From: Acidobacteriota bacterium
GTDB taxonomy: Bacteria; Acidobacteriota; Vicinamibacteria; Vicinamibacterales; UBA2999
NCBI GenBank assembly: GCA_023265015.1
Contig: JAHFUO010000023.1
Coordinates: forward strand, 1 to 33,125
Direction of reading: 5' to 3'
DNA: 33,125 nucleotides
Of this stretch, positions 6,001 through 30,546 are shown one piece after another; the stretch's first letter is position 1; each line of letters opens with the position of its first letter. The translations under genes were made by a program, and so were the position numbers. The notes under the pieces were generated by a model. The model saw only the letters and a program-made list of their open reading frames with translations, ran no database searches and was not told the DNA's origin.

Positions 6001-8898
6001 ATGAACAGTTGGCGCGTCATCAGCCGCGTGCTGATCCTCTGCGCAGCGATTGCGCTGCCCCGCAGCGGGTTCGCGCAGGAAGCCGTCCTGAGCGGCACCA
6101 TCACCGACAGCACGGGCGGCGTGCTGCCTGGTGTCACCGTGACAGCCCTCAACACAGCGTCCGGAAACAACTTCGTTGCGGTCACCGACGAGCGCGGCGG
6201 CTATCGCATCCCCGTGCGGATCGGCGACTACACGATCTCCGCGGAGCTCCAGGGATTCGGCGCCGCCGCGAAGACGGTTGCCGTGCAGGTCGGCCAGACC
6301 GCGGTGATGAATCTGCAGATGGCTCCGTCCACCGTGCAGGAGTCCATTGTCGTGAGCGGCGAGGCGCCGCTCATCGACACTGCCACCTCCACGCTCGGCG
6401 GCAACATCGACAAGCGGCAGATGCGGGACCTGCCGATCAACGGCCGCAACTGGATGGACCTGGCGATGCTCGCGCCCGGCAGCCGGCAGAACGAGAGCAG
6501 CAACATCCCGCAGGCGCGCCAGGGCTACTCGCAGATCAACATCGACGGCCAGCAGATCACCCACCTGATCCCGGGCACGGATCAGAACCAGCCCAGCTAC
6601 AGCATGGACGCCATCGCCGAGTTCATCGTCGTCACCAACCGGTTCGACGCGACACAGGGGCGATCGTCCGGCATGCTGGCGAACGCGGTGACCAAGTCCG
6701 GCACGAACACCTACGCCGGCACGGTCGCCGGCTACTTCCGGAGCGACAGGTTCAACGCGTCCGACTTCATCCAGAACCGCGTCGTACCGTACCAGGATCA
6801 GCAGCTCGTGACGACCTTCGGCGGGCCGATCAGGAAGGATCGGATCCATTTCTTCGGCAACTACGAGCAGGAGCGGCAGCCGCAGACGGTCACCTTCTCG
6901 AGCCCGTACCCGGCGTTCAACATCGACCTGACGGCGAAGAACCGCCAGCGGAAGGGGATCGTGCGCGGCGACGTGCAGTTCTCGTCGCGGACGCACTTCA
7001 TGACGCGCTTCCAGAAGTACTACAACGACCTGCCGAACAGCGGCACGGGCGGGGCGAGCAGCCACCCGTCCACGGCGCGGCGCGAGCAGCGGCACAGCGA
7101 CGAAATCTTCAGCACGCTCACCGAGGTGCTCGGCGTGCGCGCGGTGAACGAGATCAAGGGCGGCGCGTCGCTCTTCAACTACACGCGCGATGCCGCGGTC
7201 ACGTGGAAAGGCGGCTGTTTTCCCGATGCTCCAGTGCGCTGCGGCGGCTCGGAGACCATCAGTCTCCGCGGGTACTCGATCGGCCAGGGCGTCGGGCAGG
7301 ACCAGACGCAGAACAACTATTCGGTCAGGGACGACTTCACGTTCTCGTTCGACAAGGGCGGGCGGCAAGACGTGAAGATCGGCGGCGAGTACGTCCGCCA
7401 GGCGACCTACATCCTGTGGTGCGCGACCTGCACGGGGAGCCTCGACGCCACCAACGGCCCCGTGCCGGCCAACATCCAGTCGCTGTTCCCGGTCTGGAAC
7501 GACGCCGCGACGTGGAACCTCGCGCCGCTGTCGCCGATTTCGAGGCGCTTCACGATGAACGTGTCGAACACGAGGTTCCACTACAAGATCCCGCAGAGCC
7601 TCTACGCGGCCTGGCTGCAGGACGACTGGAAGGTGGCCAGCAAGCTGACGCTGAACCTCGGCCTGCGCTACGACGTGCAGGCCGGTGCCAACTCCGAAGG
7701 CTATGTGTTCAAGCCGTGGATCAACAACGACATCCCGTACGACCTGAACAACTTCGGCCCGCGCGTCGGCTTCGCGTATACGCTCAACCAGAAGACCGTC
7801 ATCCGCGGCGGCTACGGGTTGTTCTACGCGCAGGCGTCCACCGACGAGGGACACCAGACGGCGGAGGCGGTGCATCAGGCGGCGGCCGAGGCCCTCTACG
7901 ATGGCCGCGCCGACTTCGCCGTCAACCCGTACAACGGCCCTGTGCCGACCTACGCGCAGGTGATGGCGAACGCGTGCGATCAGAACGGCAACGCGCCGGG
8001 ATGCTACCGCCGGTCGATCACCGACGAAATCAACAGCAAGTGGCGGCGGATGCCGTACGCGCGGCAGGGATCGATCGGGCTTGAACGCCAGGTCGGCGGC
8101 GACATGTCGATGCAGGCGAACTATGTCTATACGGGCGGACGCGGCGAAGAAGTGGACACCAACATCAACCTCTCGTATAACCCCGCGACCGGCGTGAACT
8201 ACCCGTCCGCCGACCTGACCCATCGTCCGTTTCAGGATTGGGCGATCGTGCCGCTCGGCCTGCTCGAGGGCTTCTCGAACTACAAGGGCCTCGAGACGAG
8301 CGTCAACAAGCGCTTCAGCCATCATTGGCAGGCTCAGGGCACGTATACCTACTCCCATTTCCGCGACGGCTCGGGCCAGCCGCGGCAGTATTCGATCGTC
8401 AACGGATTGTTGACGCGCACACCGTACGCCTTCGCGATCCCTCCGGACATTTACGGGGGCTACGGCCTGGCGGCCACCGATCAGCGGCATCGCGCGGTCA
8501 TCAACGGCATCTACAGTCCCGGCCTCGGCATTCAGGTCAGCGGCCTCTATTTCTATGGCTCGGGATCGCGGTTGGCGACGAGGTACGGCAGCGACATCCG
8601 CGATGTCGGCTTCAACCTGATGGCGACGCAGCGGCTGCGTCCGAACGGATCGATCATCCCGCGCAATACGTTCGTCGGCTCGCCGATTCACCGCGTGGAC
8701 ATGCGCGTGCAGAAGTCGATCAGCCTCGGGCACCACACGATCGCGGGGGTCGTGGACGTCTTCAACGTCTTCAACCGCGCGAACTACGGCTCCTACACGC
8801 TCACCGAGACGAGCGCGAGCTATGGCAGGCCGTCCTACAACAGCAACCTCGCGTACCAGGCCCGCATGCTGCAGTTCGGGTTCCGGCTCGGGTTCTGA
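6001..8898 (+). CDS. Oar-like TonB-dependent outer-membrane receptor
   Basis: This is a 965-residue outer-membrane receptor, started at the ATG behind AAGGAG rather than at 5953. A signal peptide (about residues 1-25, ending GFAQ) is followed by a carboxypeptidase-regulatory-like domain (SGTITDSTGGVLPGVTVTAL, about 28-105). Next comes a plug domain (VVSGEAPLIDTATSTLGGNI, then LPINGRNWMDLAMLAPG). A long beta-barrel follows and ends in the aromatic pattern FGFRLGF typical of outer-membrane assembly. Such receptors import large or complexed substrates using TonB energy, but the substrate cannot be read from sequence. A DUF6152 gene follows after 8 bases, suggesting one transcript. A 947-codon antisense frame is only a composition shadow. 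Confidence 0.93.
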   Translation: MNSWRVISRVLILCAAIALPRSGFAQEAVLSGTITDSTGGVLPGVTVTALNTASGNNFVAVTDERGGYRIPVRIGDYTISAELQGFGAAAKTVAVQVGQTAVMNLQMAPSTVQESIVVSGEAPLIDTATSTLGGNIDKRQMRDLPINGRNWMDLAMLAPGSRQNESSNIPQARQGYSQINIDGQQITHLIPGTDQNQPSYSMDAIAEFIVVTNRFDATQGRSSGMLANAVTKSGTNTYAGTVAGYFRSDRFNASDFIQNRVVPYQDQQLVTTFGGPIRKDRIHFFGNYEQERQPQTVTFSSPYPAFNIDLTAKNRQRKGIVRGDVQFSSRTHFMTRFQKYYNDLPNSGTGGASSHPSTARREQRHSDEIFSTLTEVLGVRAVNEIKGGASLFNYTRDAAVTWKGGCFPDAPVRCGGSETISLRGYSIGQGVGQDQTQNNYSVRDDFTFSFDKGGRQDVKIGGEYVRQATYILWCATCTGSLDATNGPVPANIQSLFPVWNDAATWNLAPLSPISRRFTMNVSNTRFHYKIPQSLYAAWLQDDWKVASKLTLNLGLRYDVQAGANSEGYVFKPWINNDIPYDLNNFGPRVGFAYTLNQKTVIRGGYGLFYAQASTDEGHQTAEAVHQAAAEALYDGRADFAVNPYNGPVPTYAQVMANACDQNGNAPGCYRRSITDEINSKWRRMPYARQGSIGLERQVGGDMSMQANYVYTGGRGEEVDTNINLSYNPATGVNYPSADLTHRPFQDWAIVPLGLLEGFSNYKGLETSVNKRFSHHWQAQGTYTYSHFRDGSGQPRQYSIVNGLLTRTPYAFAIPPDIYGGYGLAATDQRHRAVINGIYSPGLGIQVSGLYFYGSGSRLATRYGSDIRDVGFNLMATQRLRPNGSIIPRNTFVGSPIHRVDMRVQKSISLGHHTIAGVVDVFNVFNRANYGSYTLTETSASYGRPSYNSNLAYQARMLQFGFRLGF

Positions 8899-8906
8899 GG
8901 TGAACG

Positions 8907-9305
8907 ATGAAAAAAATCATCAAAATTCTGTTGACCTCGGCCACTGTCCTGGCGTTCCTGGCGGGCACACCCGCGATCGCGCATCACTCCGCCAACGCCG
9001 AGTTCAACACGCAAGAGCAGCTCACGATCACCGGCGTACTCACGAAGGTCGAGAATGTGAACCCGCACTCGTGGTGGTACGTCGACGTCAAGGATTCCGA
9101 TGGAAAGGTCAGCTCGTGGAGGCTGGAATCCAACAGCCCGAGCGGCCTCATCCGGCTGGGTCTGAAGGTCAAGACCGAGGTCAAGATCGGAGACATTGTC
9201 AGCTTCAGGATTTCGCCGGCCTGGAAGGACCCTGAGGGCTCCAAGCTCGGGTGGATGAGATCGATCACGGTGAACGGCAAGGAGTTCGTGCTCACCGAGC
9301 TCTAG
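8907..9305 (+). CDS. DUF6152 periplasmic protein, paralogue 1
   Basis: This 132-residue exported protein has signal peptide MKKIIKILLTSATVLAFLAG ending TPAIA. The predicted mature chain begins HHSANAEFNTQEQLTITGVL and contains NPHSWWYVDVK. This HHS start, the T-x-x-G-x-hydrophobic strand and the NPH(S/A)W motif are what I recognise as DUF6152. The fold is probably a small beta-barrel; the function is unknown. A ribosome site (GAGGTGA) overlaps the end of the receptor gene, so the two are likely translated from one message. The paralogue at 22743 differs at about 20 positions over the mature part of about 107 residues. A role as a periplasmic partner of the receptor is inference. Confidence 0.88.
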   Translation: MKKIIKILLTSATVLAFLAGTPAIAHHSANAEFNTQEQLTITGVLTKVENVNPHSWWYVDVKDSDGKVSSWRLESNSPSGLIRLGLKVKTEVKIGDIVSFRISPAWKDPEGSKLGWMRSITVNGKEFVLTEL

Positions 9306-9510
9306 GAAACCAGTTCTCGGGTTGCTCTGGTGCTCGGGTGCTCAGGTTCTGGTTCTCCGGTTCATGGCAAGGGTTCACGGTGCTCAGGTGGTTCCTCCGG
9401 TTCACAGGTTTTCCGCGCGAACCCACCGGTGCACCCAAGAACCGATGAACCCGCGCACCGGAACCCAAGCACCTGAGCACCCGAGCAACCTGAGAACCGT
9501 ATTAAAGCGC
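9306..9510. repeat. Intergenic inverted low-complexity repeat (GGTTC/GGTGCTC words)
   Basis: The left side is made of GGTTC, GGTGCTC and CGGGTT words, and the right side of their complements. The clearest arms are TGCTCGGGTGCTCAGGT at 9331-9347 and its exact reverse complement at 9471-9487. It lies between convergent genes and could act as a bidirectional terminator or fold as a long imperfect hairpin. No T-run is present. Confidence 0.75.
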
Positions 9511-9522
9511 CGGCCCGGCTGA

Positions 9523-9951
9523 CTATCTCCGCCGGAAATTATTTCCCCGCCGGAAATTGTTTCCCGCCGCCTGCCCGCTGCCAGGCCACACCCAGCCGTC
9601 CGCCGGGCGGCGGATGCTCTTGAGGTGCACCGAGTACTCCGTCGCGCTGCGGCTGGGCGCCCCGGTGACGATCACGTGGTCGCCCGCGTTGATGCTCCCG
9701 CCCGAGATCCCCTGTTGCGTGAGCCGATTGGGATTGGCCCATTCGGCGCCGAACTGCCGCAGCACGCCCGTGCTGTCCTTCGCGGTGAAGTAGACCCACG
9801 AATGCGGGTTGCGGAGCTCGAACGACACCACGTCGCCCTCGAGCGAGACCAGTTTTTCCTCCGCGTAGTCCTTCGCAAAGGAATGGTGTGCGTCGGCCGC
9901 GGCGGCGACGAGCAGTGCGCCGATGCCCATGAGCAAGAGCGTGCGCTTCAC
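9523..9951 (-). CDS. DUF6152 periplasmic protein, divergent paralogue 2
   Basis: This 142-residue exported protein has signal peptide MKRTLLLMGIGALLVAAAADA; the mature chain is predicted to begin HHSFAKDYAEEKLVSLEGDV. It keeps the family NPHSW motif (ELRNPHSWVYFTAKD) and later GISGGSINAGDHVIVTGAPS. It is much more distant from the 8907 protein than that one is from 22743. The C-terminus ends with a duplicated motif, GNNFRRGNNFRRR, encoded by an 18-base tandem repeat (9530-9547 and 9548-9565, one base different). That tail looks like a recent local duplication. The gene stands alone upstream of dispersed repeat copy B and converges on the receptor operon. Function unknown. Confidence 0.85.
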   Translation of the reverse strand: MKRTLLLMGIGALLVAAAADAHHSFAKDYAEEKLVSLEGDVVSFELRNPHSWVYFTAKDSTGVLRQFGAEWANPNRLTQQGISGGSINAGDHVIVTGAPSRSATEYSVHLKSIRRPADGWVWPGSGQAAGNNFRRGNNFRRR

Positions 9952-21770: not shown

Positions 21771-22709
21771 ATGCGTACCGCCATCGTCGTTGCTGCTGCA
21801 GGCCTGCTCATGGGGAACGCCGTCATGGCACAGCGGGGCATGCCCGCGGCGCCGGCCGGTCCGGCACCGACCTGTCCGCCGAGCGGCTACATGCCGCAGG
21901 CGTATTACGCCGGGTTCGGCCAGAACGGCGGTGACGGCAACACCGCCTACGAGATCGCCAGCCCGTGCATCGGCAAGGACGTGCGCGAGGTCGCCGAATC
22001 GATCGGCATGGGGCGCAACAAGCTGCTCGGCGTCAAGAACGTGATCACGATCATGTTCTCCGCCGACGGGACGATGGCCGATGCGGGCGGAATGGCCAAG
22101 CTGACCAAGTCCGACTTTCATATCTCCTACTATCTGCCGGCCATGCGGATGTTCCTCAACGGAACTCGCGCGAACGGCCAGCCGCTGAAGGACATCCGCG
22201 TGTTCGCTGACCAGTACGCGTGGAACGAGACCCAGGAGGGTAGAGGGGCGACGGCCGCGATGAGCACGCTGAACGATCGCGCGCCGCTCCTCAAGCTCAC
22301 GCCGTTTGGCGCGATGTGGTCGGTGATCGAGGCCGAGGGCCACACGGTTGTCACCAAGACGGCCGACGGCAAGACGGTCCTCACCGGCACCTCTCCGTAC
22401 GATGGCATTGAAGTCTCGATCACGGTCGAGGATCGGGTTCAGCATCCCCGACTGGGCCCGTACGCTCCGGGCGAGTTGATACGGCTGCCGGTCGCAGTCA
22501 CGGCGAAGGCGAACGGTCACGCCTACGGCGCGACGTTTGCGGATTACCGCAGCAACCTGGAGCCGAATGTCTGGATCATCTTCCCGGCCCAGATCGCGTG
22601 GACGCTCGACGGCAAGCCGCTCGCCGATCTGAGGGTCACGTATTTCCGTTCGAATCCGTACGTCGTGTTTCCGGTGCCCGACGTCGTGAAGCAGAAATCA
22701 TCCAATTAG
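21771..22709 (+). CDS. Exported protein of unknown family
   Basis: This 312-residue protein has a signal peptide (MRTAIVVAAAGLLMGNAVMA). The mature chain has a proline-rich start (APAGPAPTCPPSGYMPQAYY), then a central part (YEIASPCIGKDVREVAESIG, NVITIMFSADGTMADAGGMA) and a C-terminal beta-rich part (VEDRVQHPRLGPYAPGELIR, VWIIFPAQIAWTLDGKPLAD). Two cysteines (in TCPPS and SPCIG) could form a disulfide. I do not recognise a named domain. It is the first gene of a tight cluster with a DUF6152 protein and another exported protein, spaced 33 and 8 bases apart, which suggests a shared periplasmic or surface task. AGAGGTAA upstream fits its start. Confidence 0.75.
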   Translation: MRTAIVVAAAGLLMGNAVMAQRGMPAAPAGPAPTCPPSGYMPQAYYAGFGQNGGDGNTAYEIASPCIGKDVREVAESIGMGRNKLLGVKNVITIMFSADGTMADAGGMAKLTKSDFHISYYLPAMRMFLNGTRANGQPLKDIRVFADQYAWNETQEGRGATAAMSTLNDRAPLLKLTPFGAMWSVIEAEGHTVVTKTADGKTVLTGTSPYDGIEVSITVEDRVQHPRLGPYAPGELIRLPVAVTAKANGHAYGATFADYRSNLEPNVWIIFPAQIAWTLDGKPLADLRVTYFRSNPYVVFPVPDVVKQKSSN

Positions 22710-22742: not shown

Positions 22743-23138
22743 ATGGTCAAGAAGATTGTCATCGCATCCGCCGCCGTTCTGGCGCTGCTGATGATCGGCG
22801 CCCCCGCGATGGCGCACCATTCGGCGAACGCGGAGTTCAACACGCAGGAGCAATTCACGATCACCGGCGTGCTCACGAAGGTTGAGAACGTCAATCCGCA
22901 CTCCTGGTGGTACGTCGACGTCAAAGGGCCGGATGGCAAAATGACCTCGTGGAAGCTGGAATCGCTGAGCCCGAGCGGTCTGATTCGCCAGGGTCTGAAG
23001 GTCAAGACCGAGCTCAAGATCGGCGATACGTACAGCTACCGGATCTCTCCCGCGTGGAAGGACCCCGAGGGCGCGAAGCTGGGGTTCATGCGGGCGATCA
23101 CCATGAACGGCAAGGAATACATCGTCGTCGAACTGTAG
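22743..23138 (+). CDS. DUF6152 periplasmic protein, paralogue 3
   Basis: This 131-residue protein is a close paralogue of the protein at 8907. The signal peptide ends GAPAMA and the mature chain is predicted to begin HHSANAEFNTQEQFTITGVL. The motif VNPHSWWYVDVKGPDGKMTS follows. Of the mature part of about 107 residues, about 20 differ from paralogue 1, mostly conservative. The two signal peptides differ more than the mature parts, which implies selection on the exported domain. It is the middle gene of the 21771-24079 cluster. The ATG at 22743 has the purine-rich AGAAAGGA about eight bases upstream. Function unknown; possible metal binding is discussed in the findings. Confidence 0.88.
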   Translation: MVKKIVIASAAVLALLMIGAPAMAHHSANAEFNTQEQFTITGVLTKVENVNPHSWWYVDVKGPDGKMTSWKLESLSPSGLIRQGLKVKTELKIGDTYSYRISPAWKDPEGAKLGFMRAITMNGKEYIVVEL

Positions 23139-23146
23139 GAGGCGTC

Positions 23147-24079
23147 GTGAGCAACAACATCCGGTCATCGGCCGCCGCGGCGTTCGCGCTCGTCGCCGCG
23201 GTCGCAGTGTCGCCTGGGCATTCCGCTGCGCAGCAGCAGCCTCAGGCCGCCCAGCAGCTTCCGCCGAGCGCACAGCGGACGGGGAACCTTCCGCTCCGGG
23301 ATGTGCAGACGTCGTACAGTCCCGCGGGAAAGCGCATCTCGCCGCAGGACGGCTTCGTCATGCAGCAGCATTCATCACTGCCGACGCCGCGTGATGCCGA
23401 CGGCCATCCGGACCTGTCTGGAAACTGGGGCGCGAACTTTCCCAATCCGATCGGCGCACCCGGACTACGGAGGATGGGGGCCCTCGAACCCGACCAGGCC
23501 ACGATGCAGCGCGGCGCGCAGTGGAACAAACCGCTCTATAAGCCGGAGTACTGGGAGAAGGTCAGGAGTCTGGACTTCAGCAAATCCGACGTCGATCCGA
23601 ACTACGGCTGCGGAAAGCCGAGCGGCGTGCCGCGGCAGAACACGCCGGGGCGGATTGTCCAGAAGGACAAGCAGATCTGGCTGCTCAACGGCGTCGAGAA
23701 TGAACTTCGTATCCTCCCGCTCGACGGGCGCCCGCGCGACCCCAACGATGAGCAGTTCTCGACGTTCAGCGGCATGGGGCTGGCGCGCTGGGACGGCGAC
23801 ACGCTCGTGATCGAATCGGTCGGCTTCAACGACATCTCCTGGCTCGGGTGGGAAGGGTACTTCCACACCGACAAGATGACGGTGACCGAGCGTTTCCGTC
23901 GCGAGGGCGACCTGCTGTTCTACAACTTCACGGTGAACGACCCTGACGTGCTGATGGAGCCGTGGACGTCGTACACGTATGTGAGGAGGGGGAACACGAA
24001 TCCGAACCGGCAGGACGAAGCGACGACTTGCGACGAGCGCGATATCGGCCTGCTGGTCGATCCGTACCTCCGCGGCTGA
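23147..24079 (+). CDS. Exported acidobacterial protein of the DLSGNW / WDGDTLVIE type
   Basis: The track starts inside the DUF6152 gene in another frame. I choose GTG at 23147, preceded by AGGAGG at 23137-23142, which overlaps the previous stop region. The 310-residue product has a signal peptide (NIRSSAAAAFALVAAVAVSP, ending HSAAQ). The mature part has HPDLSGNWGANF, PRQNTPGRIVQ, GLARWDGDTLVIESVGFNDI and KMTVTERFRREGDLL. I recall a very large acidobacterial family with this DLSG-W and (R/W)xGDTLVV(D/E)(S/T)xGF...VTERFRR pattern and no established function. The beta-rich repeats suggest a small propeller or sandwich. It is the last gene of the cluster; a double hairpin follows its stop. Confidence 0.82.
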   Translation: MSNNIRSSAAAAFALVAAVAVSPGHSAAQQQPQAAQQLPPSAQRTGNLPLRDVQTSYSPAGKRISPQDGFVMQQHSSLPTPRDADGHPDLSGNWGANFPNPIGAPGLRRMGALEPDQATMQRGAQWNKPLYKPEYWEKVRSLDFSKSDVDPNYGCGKPSGVPRQNTPGRIVQKDKQIWLLNGVENELRILPLDGRPRDPNDEQFSTFSGMGLARWDGDTLVIESVGFNDISWLGWEGYFHTDKMTVTERFRREGDLLFYNFTVNDPDVLMEPWTSYTYVRRGNTNPNRQDEATTCDERDIGLLVDPYLRG

Positions 24080-24155: not shown

Positions 24156-24542
24156 TTACATCTTTGCGAGATGCCACACCATGCCGCGGCCCTCGCCGAG
24201 CTTGTCACCGGCGGCCTTGTCCATCACGAAGTAATAGAGCGGCTTGCCCTTGTACGCCCACTGCTTCGAGCCATCGTCACGGGTGATGACCTTCCAGTCG
24301 CCGAGGTCCTTGTCGGCGGCCTCGGCCTTCAGCACGGGCCAGTTGTTCAGGCAATTACCGGCACAGGCCGACTTGTTCGCTTCTTTGTCGTTATCGAAGG
24401 TGTACAGCGACATGCCCTTCGCATCCATCAGCATGCCATTCGCCGCATGCACGGCGGCCGGCATCGTCGGAGTCTGGGCGACGGCATATCCGCTCACCGC
24501 CACGGCCAATATGGCCGACGCCACAACAGTCATTGCTCGCAT
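24156..24542 (-). CDS. Secreted YxFxxD-motif protein (COG4315-like), copy 1
   Basis: The start at 24542 is supported by AGGAG seven bases upstream and a signal peptide (MRAMTVVASAILAVAVSGYAVAQ); the track's 24599 start precedes that ribosome site. The product has 128 residues. The two repeats SLYTFDNDKEANKSACAGNC and PLYYFVMDKAAGDKLGEG carry the Y-x-(F/Y)-x-x-D motif of the secreted-repeat family PF03640/COG4315. The CAGNC pair and a tryptophan-rich centre (NNWPVLKAE, GDWKVI) are typical. The function is not established. A 468-base block holding this gene and its upstream region is duplicated at 30079-30546 with about 19 differences. Confidence 0.88.
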   Translation of the reverse strand: MRAMTVVASAILAVAVSGYAVAQTPTMPAAVHAANGMLMDAKGMSLYTFDNDKEANKSACAGNCLNNWPVLKAEAADKDLGDWKVITRDDGSKQWAYKGKPLYYFVMDKAAGDKLGEGRGMVWHLAKM

Positions 24543-24624
24543 GAGGTTTCTCCTGAAGTCGCTCCTCGAACACCGGGGGAGGCGGGGCGACGTGCGCATC
24601 CGGGAGGCAACTTAGCACAAATCG
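24157..24624. repeat. 468-base duplicated block, copy 1
   Basis: This block matches 30079-30546 without indels, with about 19 mismatches by hand count (roughly 96 percent identity). It includes the YxFxxD gene and 82 bases upstream of its start. Similarity stops abruptly after AGCACAAATCG at the upstream end and at the stop codon at the other. Confidence 0.88.
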
Positions 24625-25086
24625 GCGAGGCGGTGGATCTTCGAAGCCTGGACTCAGGTCCGCCAGGCCGAAGCGCAACACAGGACGTGCGTTCCTCATC
24701 GCTACGGCGTTCAGCACGAACGAGCCGCGCGCGTCACGAGCGATCGCGCGCCGGCTCCATTCGGGGGTTGGACGCCTTCCTCGCCGATTCGCGCGCGGCG
24801 TCCGAGTGCGATGTTCATCCTCGTAATGCCCCACGTCCATTGCGGGAGAAGTCCTACGTCCTCAGTCGTTTGGGCAGGCAGGCGGCGATTCGGGCCACGC
24901 ATGCGGCGGCTTATCGAGTGCGCTGATCGCTCCGGGAAGTCGCGTGGCGGCGAGAATCAAGGGATCTCCGGACGACGCGCCGCGGTCTCGGACGAAAGAA
25001 ATCGGGCGCGCCTGCCACGACAGATGTAGCATACGGGACGCGTTCCACATTCTGCGGCTTCTCGAAAGGAAGGCAGGAGGCACATG
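24625..25086. other. Intergenic region, no supported gene
   Basis: No frame here has a recognisable protein pattern; the listed ORFs look like composition shadows. The only clear element is the ribosome site AGGAGG at 25075-25080 for the downstream cytochrome gene. Confidence 0.5.
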
Positions 25087-26244
25087 ATGAATCTGATTCC
25101 GAAGCAGTCGGTAGGCGCGATCACAGCGTTGGTTCTTGGCATCTCGCTGACCGTCGGAGTCAGCCAGAAGCTGGTCACCGCCCAGGCTCCCGTCGCACTC
25201 AGCAACAACCAGAAGGTCGAGGACGTGTTCCTCAACATCAAGTCTCTCAGGGGCCAGCCTGCGGACATGCTGAACCCGACGATGGTGTTCTTTGAGGCCG
25301 CCCTTGGAGTCGGCTGTCCGTACTGCCACGACAATGACGCCAACAAGCGCGAGCTCGACTCCAAGCCACAGAAGCTGATCGCCAGGCGGATGATCGACAT
25401 GGTGACGTCGATCAACAAGGAGACGTTCAACGGAGCCCGGCAGGTCACCTGCTTCACCTGCCACGAGGGACGGAGCACGCCGATCGGGACGCCGAATGTC
25501 AGTGGCGCCGAACTGCCGCCCGCACTGGGAGAAGACTACCTTGCGACGCTGCCTCCTCCTCCTCCGGTACCCGCGATGAGCGCCGGCCAGGTGCTCGACA
25601 AGTACATCGCGGCGCTTGGCGGAGCGAACGCCCTGGAGAAGGTTCCCGGCCTGACGGCGGCGGGTACCGTCACGCAGCGCCGGCCCGGACGCGACTTCCC
25701 TTCGACTCAGATCGAGATTTTCTCGAGGGTTCCCGGAATGGGGCTGAGCGTGACCAAGGCGGGACAGAACGACAACCTGCTGTCCTACGGCGCGACCGGC
25801 GGATGGGCGCGAGCCGGCAACGCAGCCCCGCGCGACCTCCGCAAGGCCGAGGCCGACGGCACGAAGCTGGAAGACCCCTTCAACCTTCCGGCCCAGCTGA
25901 AGCAGACCCTGATCGACGCGAAGCTGGACCACCCGGACGTGATCGGCAACCGCGAGGTCTACGTGATCACGGCGCGCACGCAGAACCTGCCGTTGGTGAA
26001 GGCGTACTTCGAGAAGGAAAGCGGGATGCTGGCGCGCCTCGTCTACTACACCGACACGCCCTTCGGCCAGTATCCGACGCAGATCGAATACAGCGACTTC
26101 CGGGACGTCGGCGGGAGAAAGGTCCCGTACCAGTGGGTGATCTCGCAGACCAGGAATCGCGAGTTCACGTATGCGATGCAGACCGTCCGGGCGGTGGCGA
26201 TCGAAGACGCCAGATTCGCCAAGCCGGCTGCAACCGCGCGCTGA
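25087..26244 (+). CDS. Di-haem c-type cytochrome related to the photosynthetic reaction-centre cytochrome subunit
   Basis: Two ATGs lie in tandem (25084, 25087); AGGAGG is better spaced for the second. The 385-residue product has a signal peptide (NLIPKQSVGAITALVLGISL, ending TAQA). An N-terminal domain of about 130 residues has two haem sites, CPYCH (residues 77-81) and CFTCH (122-126), separated by KPQKLIARRMIDMVTSINKE. This is the pattern of the acidobacterial two-haem proteins related to the reaction-centre cytochrome subunit (PF02276), which occur without photosynthesis. After a proline linker (LPPPPPVPA), a C-terminal domain of about 220 residues (DKYIAALGGANALEKVPGLT to YSDFRDVGGRKVPYQWVISQ) resembles LolA-like lipoprotein-sorting beta-folds. 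It is probably a periplasmic electron carrier; the partner is unknown. Confidence 0.87.
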   Translation: MNLIPKQSVGAITALVLGISLTVGVSQKLVTAQAPVALSNNQKVEDVFLNIKSLRGQPADMLNPTMVFFEAALGVGCPYCHDNDANKRELDSKPQKLIARRMIDMVTSINKETFNGARQVTCFTCHEGRSTPIGTPNVSGAELPPALGEDYLATLPPPPPVPAMSAGQVLDKYIAALGGANALEKVPGLTAAGTVTQRRPGRDFPSTQIEIFSRVPGMGLSVTKAGQNDNLLSYGATGGWARAGNAAPRDLRKAEADGTKLEDPFNLPAQLKQTLIDAKLDHPDVIGNREVYVITARTQNLPLVKAYFEKESGMLARLVYYTDTPFGQYPTQIEYSDFRDVGGRKVPYQWVISQTRNREFTYAMQTVRAVAIEDARFAKPAATAR

Positions 26245-29488: not shown

Positions 29489-30099
29489 CGCTCGTCCGTC
29501 GCGGCTGGCGTCCAGCCGGTAATCATTCCTCGCACGCGGTCCGTGAAGCCGGCGCGCCACACCATCCCGATGTGCACCAGAAGAAACAGAACAAGGAGAT
29601 CCGCCGCGAAGAAATGAATGGTCCGCGCCGACTGCTGCCCGCCCAGCACGCGCACGGCGCCGGGCACAACCGAGACGATCGCGGGAGACATCGCGAGGCC
29701 GCTCCAGATCATCAGGGGGAACAGCGCGAAGACGACGATCAGGTACGTGCGTCGCTGAAGGGGGTTGTAGTCGCGCATGCGGAAGTGCCGGGTCCACAAG
29801 CCGTACAAAACGTAGATCGCGCCGGTCGCGACGGCGATCCACGCGGAGAGAAAGTGCAGATACCGGCCCCAGCCCGTTTGACCCGTCAGGACAAGCGGGA
29901 GCGGCAGATCGATGAGAGAGGGCGCTCCCACGGCCCCGGTTTCACCCCAGTAGAGCCGTGGGTGAGCCAGCAGAATCGCGACGCCGCTGACGAGCAGCGC
30001 GCAGAAGGCGACCGCGGTCATCCAGTGCGTGATGCGCACGAGGGTGGAGTGCCGCGGACGATCCGTTGATCGCTCCTCTACATCTTGGCGAGATGCCAC
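29485..30099 (-). CDS. Cytochrome b561 / formate dehydrogenase gamma-like membrane subunit
   Basis: This integral membrane protein has about four helices and conserved histidines of b-type haem binding: ITHWMTAVAFCALLVSG (helix 1), RYLHFLSAWIAVATGAIYVL (helix 2), TYLIVVFALFPLMIWSGLAM (helix 3) and TIHFFAADLLVLFLLVHIGM (helix 4, with two His). It should pass electrons between quinol and the periplasmic molybdopterin enzyme whose start codon overlaps its stop. The start is uncertain. GTG at 30099 makes 204 residues and lies inside the preceding YxFxxD gene, overlapping it by 22 bases; GTG at 30039 makes 184 residues and places the first histidine near the N-terminus. GAGGAG at about 30070 is too far from 30039. 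Confidence 0.85.
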   Translation of the reverse strand: MASRQDVEERSTDRPRHSTLVRITHWMTAVAFCALLVSGVAILLAHPRLYWGETGAVGAPSLIDLPLPLVLTGQTGWGRYLHFLSAWIAVATGAIYVLYGLWTRHFRMRDYNPLQRRTYLIVVFALFPLMIWSGLAMSPAIVSVVPGAVRVLGGQQSARTIHFFAADLLVLFLLVHIGMVWRAGFTDRVRGMITGWTPAATDER

Positions 30100-30464
30100 A
30101 CCATGCCGCGGCCTTCGCCGAGCTTGTCACCGGCCGCCTTGTCCATCACGAAGTAATAGAGCGGCTTGCCCTTGTACGCCCACTGCTTCGAGCCATCGTC
30201 ACGGGTGATGACCTTCCAGTCGCCGATGTCCTTGTCGGCGGCCTCGGCCTTCAGCACGGGCCAGTTGTTCAGGCAATTGCCGGCACAGGCCGACTTGTTC
30301 GCCTCTTTGTCATTGTCGAAGGTGTACAGCGACATGCCCTTGGCATCCATCAGCATGCCATTCGTCATATGCACGGCGGCCGGCATCGTCGGAGTCTGGG
30401 CAACGGCGTATCCACTCACCGCCACCGCCAATATGGCCGACGCCACAACAGTCATTGCTCGCAT
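30078..30464 (-). CDS. Secreted YxFxxD-motif protein (COG4315-like), copy 2
   Basis: This 128-residue protein differs from copy 1 (24156) at only three residues (HMTNG versus HAANG, and DIGDW versus DLGDW). The motifs SLYTFDNDKE and PLYYFVMDKA, the CAGNC pair and the signal peptide are unchanged. AGGAG lies seven bases before the ATG at 30464. Unlike copy 1, it is the first gene of a probable operon with cytochrome b561, the molybdopterin enzyme and the PEGA protein, with its stop inside the first codons of the cytochrome frame. This context hints at a redox-linked role. The duplication is recent, judging by about 19 base differences, of which most are silent. Confidence 0.88.
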   Translation of the reverse strand: MRAMTVVASAILAVAVSGYAVAQTPTMPAAVHMTNGMLMDAKGMSLYTFDNDKEANKSACAGNCLNNWPVLKAEAADKDIGDWKVITRDDGSKQWAYKGKPLYYFVMDKAAGDKLGEGRGMVWHLAKM

Positions 30465-30546
30465 GAGGTTTCTCCTGAAGTCGCGCCTCGAACACCGGCG
30501 GACGCGGGGCGACGTGCGCATCCGGGAGGCAACTTAGCACAAATCG
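30079..30546. repeat. 468-base duplicated block, copy 2
   Basis: This is the partner of 24157-24624, same orientation, no indels. The block covers the whole YxFxxD gene plus 82 upstream bases, so any promoter in that leader was copied as well. Confidence 0.88.

Follow-up and report, generated by a model that had tools for sequence, protein, structure and literature searches.

The stretch of DNA analysed here (the window, 33,125 nucleotides, from an Acidobacteriota bacterium) contains three genes of the DUF6152 family (PF19649), for which Pfam states no function. In a Pfam scan the encoded proteins score 66-80 bits against PF19649 (80.4, 66.5 and 79.3 bits for proteins 1, 2 and 3), all above the curated cut-off of 27 bits that defines membership, and protein 2 has an additional weak match to the OB-fold family PF01336. 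The mature parts of proteins 3 and 1 are 84% identical. The coordinates of these genes, of their predicted signal peptides and histidines, and of the neighbouring genes are given in Table 1.

Table 1. DUF6152 genes, proposed ligand residues and adjacent genes in the window.
Feature	Position	Strand	Basis
TonB-receptor-like outer-membrane protein	6001..8898	+	PF25183 and PF13620 matches
DUF6152 gene 1, 132-residue precursor	8907..9305	+	ORF and PF19649
Predicted signal peptide of protein 1, 25 residues, A-I-A at end	8907..8981	+	sequence; family-wide cleavage pattern
His1-His2, predicted mature N-terminus of protein 1	8982..8987	+	347/348 homologues
His29 of protein 1 (NPH turn), proposed third ligand	9066..9068	+	invariant column
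DUF6152 gene 2, 142-residue precursor, GTG start	9523..9951	-	ORF and PF19649
Predicted signal peptide of protein 2, 21 residues, A-D-A at end	9889..9951	-	sequence
His1-His2 of protein 2	9883..9888	-	sequence; homologue set
His29 of protein 2	9802..9804	-	sequence; invariant column
Secreted protein directly before DUF6152 gene 3	21771..22709	+	ORF
DUF6152 gene 3, 131-residue precursor	22743..23138	+	ORF and PF19649
Predicted signal peptide of protein 3, 24 residues, A-M-A at end	22743..22814	+	sequence
His1-His2 of protein 3	22815..22820	+	sequence; homologue set
His29 of protein 3	22899..22901	+	sequence; invariant column
Secreted partner protein, GTG start, AGGAGG ribosome-binding site	23147..24079	+	sequence; family adjoins 83/89 DUF6152 genes

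Gene 1 starts 8 bases past the end of the TonB-receptor-like gene, and the gene of the secreted partner protein begins 8 bases behind gene 3; the secreted protein encoded directly before gene 3 has no family match in Pfam or NCBIfam. Genes 1 and 2 are convergent and an imperfect inverted repeat lies between them (9331-9487; 31-base arms, 84% complementary and 95 bases apart). Elsewhere in the window a Lipoprotein_15 gene (PF03640) is present in two near-identical copies, flanks included, both on the reverse strand (24156-24599 and 30078-30521), and positions 25084-26244 of the forward strand encode an exported protein of which about 100 residues match the reaction-centre cytochrome c family PF02276, while an additional 250 residues or so at its C-terminus lie beyond this match.

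A preliminary description of this DNA had pointed out that an A-x-A signal peptidase site (AIA, ADA, AMA) directly precedes His-His-Ser in the three DUF6152 proteins and that an NPHSW motif is conserved, and had proposed an N-terminal metal site. Both observations are borne out: the predicted cleavage contexts are TPAIA/HHSANAEF, AAADA/HHSFAKDY and APAMA/HHSANAEF for proteins 1, 2 and 3, and NPHSW is found in all three, its histidine being residue 29 of the mature protein. The source assembly (3.18 Mb in 175 contigs) contains 24 DUF6152 copies, including the three of the window, and His-His stands at the same place in all 24, at identities to the window proteins that for some copies fall to 21%. 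Such a number of divergent copies in 3.2 Mb is a large expansion, and several relatives have at least 31.

As a control for circularity, a core profile was built from residue 12 onwards, omitting the N-terminus; it recovers the same 24 copies in the source genome, so the constancy of His-His is not an artefact of the search. The core profile has matches in 98 of the 162 genomes of the order, in 37 of 289 genomes when the class of a Phenylobacterium genome is searched, and in 7 of 369 for that of a Peristeroidobacter genome. Among 351 distinct cores 347 carry His-His, or 347 of the 348 in which the N-terminus is readable, the three loci set aside as unreadable being L308 and L374, truncated where their contigs end, and the frameshifted L212. 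The sole true exception is an exported homologue (L152) with GGG for His-His and DPH for NPH, whose genome also has intact copies; a second candidate exception, L056, was rejected as an artefact of the choice of open reading frame. Proline-histidine is present at the His29 site in 345 of the 347 His-His-bearing sequences, the other two having NH and one undetermined residue, respectively. An alignment of 42 sequences has just four invariant columns, H1, H2, H29 and G60. Since a degenerate search from a closer alignment selects for HH or NPH, the invariance is based on the core-profile searches, the Pfam searches and the loci derived from them. At one locus near a contig end (L021, contig C145:192-362) a single reading frame joins the first half of a DUF6152 gene to the last third of a partner gene, either through fusion or deletion in nature or through an error of assembly.

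Signal peptidase I typically requires a small residue at position -1 and a small or aliphatic one at -3, and leaves position -2 free. The residues before His-His follow this pattern: in the 345 sequences with upstream sequence, position -1 is A in 331, S in 7, G in 6 and V in 1 (A, S or G in 344 of 345), position -3 is small or aliphatic, and position -2 is unrestricted, W, Q, R and Y included. The hydrophobic core of the signal peptides spans approximately positions -19 to -8, and proline is the commonest residue at -4. Of the 230 homologues with long upstream sequence, 99.1% follow the cleavage rule at His1. The secreted partner family of the same loci served as a control, aligned on the first motif conserved in it, and there no column exceeds 43%; in CopC homologues of the same phylum, a family with an N-terminal histidine, the rule is satisfied at His1 in 16 of 22. 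The constant position of the cleavage site relative to HHS, on which the metal proposal had relied, therefore extends to several hundred homologues from two phyla and to identities of about 20%, and the mature DUF6152 proteins very probably begin with His-His after removal of the signal peptide. A second position, five residues on (HHxFA/A), also formally fits the cleavage rule.

The AlphaFold2 models of the mature proteins have a pLDDT of 92.0 and a pTM of 0.84 for protein 1, and of 87.5 and 0.77 for protein 2. In the model of protein 1 a short helix (residues 4-7) is followed by strands 14-26, 29-37 and 43-50, a helix at 53-58, and strands 72-80, 88-97 and 100-103. Both models match OB proteins of the PriB/SSB kind, that of protein 1 with a Z score of up to 9.3 (78 residues superposed at an rmsd of 2.2) and that of protein 2 with a Z score of 9.1. 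A five-stranded barrel, a helix between strands 3 and 4 and a structural match to OB proteins, which we used as the criteria of an OB fold, are all found in the models, which predict an OB barrel for DUF6152. Residues 1-10 form an ordered extension outside the barrel core (mean pLDDT 83 and 81 in the two models).

The placement of this extension was approached by coevolution. A mean-field coupling analysis of 202 sequences was dropped because it coupled invariant columns artificially; a pseudolikelihood analysis (349 rows, Meff 204) was used instead, and recovers the strand pairs 33-47, 35-43 and 12-79. Of the couplings that link residues 3-9 with the barrel, F8-W31 is the strongest, W31 being two residues past His29, and further N-terminal couplings fall in the same area (F8-E49, A5-I26, A5-A30, E7/D9-W25). 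Residues 24-32 take 5 of the 15 top couplings between N-terminus and barrel, against 1.4 expected, and a second zone, residues 73-80, couples equally strongly with the N-terminal segment. These couplings, with modest statistics, moderately support a position of the N-terminal extension close to the NPHxW strand, where a contact between His1 and His29 may be supposed.

The genomic context was surveyed in 80 named loci from other genomes, which hold 89 DUF6152 genes. A secreted partner family lies within 1.5 kb of 83 of these genes, 77 times on the same strand. It is a multi-copy family of about 260-300 residues, with a PDLxGxW start, the motifs WEGDTLVV and DPxxFTRPW and two invariant cysteines; the members scanned have no Pfam match, the partner in the window has no NCBIfam match, and the family profile has no relative in the PDB. 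In the source genome 13 of the 24 DUF6152 genes adjoin a partner gene, against 0.8 expected. Counted regardless of kinship, DUF6152 is found in 98 genomes of the order and the partner in 95, both being present in 92, and a third family, DUF6644, is found in 97 genomes, 92 of them in common with DUF6152. DUF6644 is a predicted membrane protein, with one histidine and one arginine fully conserved in the set examined. Its genes often stand in tandem pairs (for example L445 4810-9303 and L448 6059-9650), and occur in clusters with DUF6152 and the partner. On plasmids of Novosphingobium and Sphingobium the module is composed of the partner, DUF6152 and two DUF6644-type genes, and a Croceibacterium plasmid carries two DUF6152 genes, the partner and a TonB receptor. 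No recognised metal-handling genes were identified in the neighbourhoods inspected.

Three histidines that remain invariant at identities down to about 20% suggest a metal site, and the earlier proposal of an N-terminal metal site is supported as a hypothesis by these sequence comparisons. With a probability of roughly 0.6, DUF6152 would be an N-terminal-histidine, brace-like metalloprotein built on an OB fold, which holds a metal in the periplasm together with the partner and DUF6644. The precursor would leave the cytoplasm by the general secretory route and lose its signal peptide to signal peptidase I at a cut exactly in front of His1; the metal would then be chelated by the N-terminal amine set free in this way together with the side chain of His1, and the invariant His29 of the NPH turn would complete a histidine-brace-like site on the rim of the OB barrel, with His2 as a further ligand or a second-shell residue. 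The metal held in the periplasm would most likely be copper, with nickel, cobalt or zinc next, and DUF6152 would work with the secreted partner encoded beside it and with the membrane protein DUF6644. We infer in this way the actual N-terminus, the closeness of the histidines, the binding of a metal and its identity, and a role in delivery, catalysis or redox chemistry.

Besides the modest coevolution signal with its equally strong second zone, the formally possible later cut and the lack of recognised metal-handling genes in the neighbourhoods inspected, two points weigh against this reading: some genomes have more than 30 copies, which is unusual for a metal chaperone, and one natural homologue, L152, has lost His-His. 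Copy numbers of 24 in the source genome, and of 31 or more in several relatives, argue against a role in metal homeostasis alone and favour copies specialised for a partner or a substrate. Tentatively, and with less confidence than the metalloprotein reading as such, DUF6152, with a three-histidine, brace-like centre on the OB fold, might carry the metal in a repeated secreted module that it forms with the partner family and DUF6644, diversified to dozens of copies per genome, in which the copy number would suggest redox or delivery roles specific to each partner or substrate.

The invariant histidines can be read in other ways. The pair His-His might bind a metal by itself, with no brace and with His29 as a structural residue, which we consider rather unlikely. 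Adjacent histidines are a Cu(I) motif, and the pair could hold Cu(I) linearly between its two side chains, or Cu(II) through the amine, an amide and His2. His2 is in fact as invariant as His1, and a brace made of His1 and His29 needs no His2; the authors of the signal-strapping study discussed below also hold that the side chains of residues 1 and 2 are hardly able to share one metal in a brace. Against this, His29 is no less invariant, and the strand that carries it shows couplings with the N-terminal segment. It is improbable, in our judgement, that the three histidines serve a role other than metal binding, such as the binding of haem, of a ligand or of a partner, or acid-base catalysis in the groove of the OB fold. 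OB folds commonly bind other ligands, and because DUF6152 is nearly always accompanied by one secreted partner, His-His could be a docking site; but a free N-terminal histidine with a second fixed histidine is a known metal arrangement (PMC10952591, PMC12537917), and docking needs no cleavage site fixed to the residue. Cleavage five residues later, at HHxFA/A, which would leave His-His within the signal peptide and without an N-terminal role, is very improbable: the loose (-3,-1) rule also holds there in 93% of the sequences, so that the rule alone cannot decide, and A-E often follows that position, but we reject the later cut because the strict A/V-x-A form is found in only 26% of sequences there against 70% at His1, because it implies a c-region of about 12 residues, because it does not fit proteins 1 and 3 of the window (HHSAN) and because the near-total invariance of His-His would be left without a reason in a discarded signal peptide; F8 and its neighbours, moreover, co-vary with the barrel.

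If the metalloprotein reading is true, what is now a common family of unknown function among Acidobacteriota and sphingomonads would turn out to consist of metalloproteins of a defined kind, an N-terminal-histidine site would have arisen on a fold unrelated to those of LPMO and CopC, and a neglected module (DUF6152, the secreted partner and DUF6644) would gain a biochemical handle that can be tested. Searches of Pfam, NCBIfam and PDB sequences gave no functional relative, weak NCBIfam matches being discarded as below the cut-off, and in the open-access papers searched we found none naming DUF6152 or DUF6644. The predicted N-terminal processing, the predicted OB fold and the partner module are added here.

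In 2025 a signal-strapping study found four families with an N-terminal histidine, DUF4198, DUF6702, Ang-1 and Ang-2, formerly of unknown function, and showed that they bind metal (PMC12537917). DUF6152 resembles them in being exported, with a predicted N-terminal histidine and further possible ligands; unlike DUF6702 and the anglerases, which are described as beta-sandwiches (PMC12537917), it begins with His-His and is a predicted OB barrel. DUF6152 is absent from the main text of that study, whose procedure rejects a second ligand at position 2 (PMC12537917), a rule that may have excluded His-His proteins from its set.

The likeness to CopC and to lytic polysaccharide monooxygenases (LPMOs), drawn in the preliminary description, holds for the motif. 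Like CopC (PF04234) and LPMOs, DUF6152 is predicted to gain an N-terminal histidine from signal-peptide cleavage and has a second fixed histidine; the likeness goes no further than this motif, since an OB barrel is predicted and not the beta-sandwich of CopC and LPMOs. In Pfam the window proteins match neither CopC nor LPMO families, only DUF6152 and, weakly, an OB fold; the source genome has no CopC match, and among the structural matches listed for the DUF6152 models, which are OB folds, CopC, LPMO and CusF do not appear, an absence without evidential weight. CusF and SilF are periplasmic OB-fold chaperones of Cu(I) and Ag(I), and DUF6152 is likewise small, exported and a predicted OB fold, with a histidine and a tryptophan near the proposed site as in these proteins. 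CusF homologues, however, carry H...M..TM whereas DUF6152 has no conserved methionine, and CusF is without the N-terminal histidine motif; homology to CusF (PF11604) was rejected at an hhalign probability of 2.9%. In the systems YcnI-YcnJ and CopC-CopD an exported histidine protein goes with a membrane protein carrying a conserved histidine, and the association of DUF6152 with DUF6644 recalls these pairs, as a tentative analogy.
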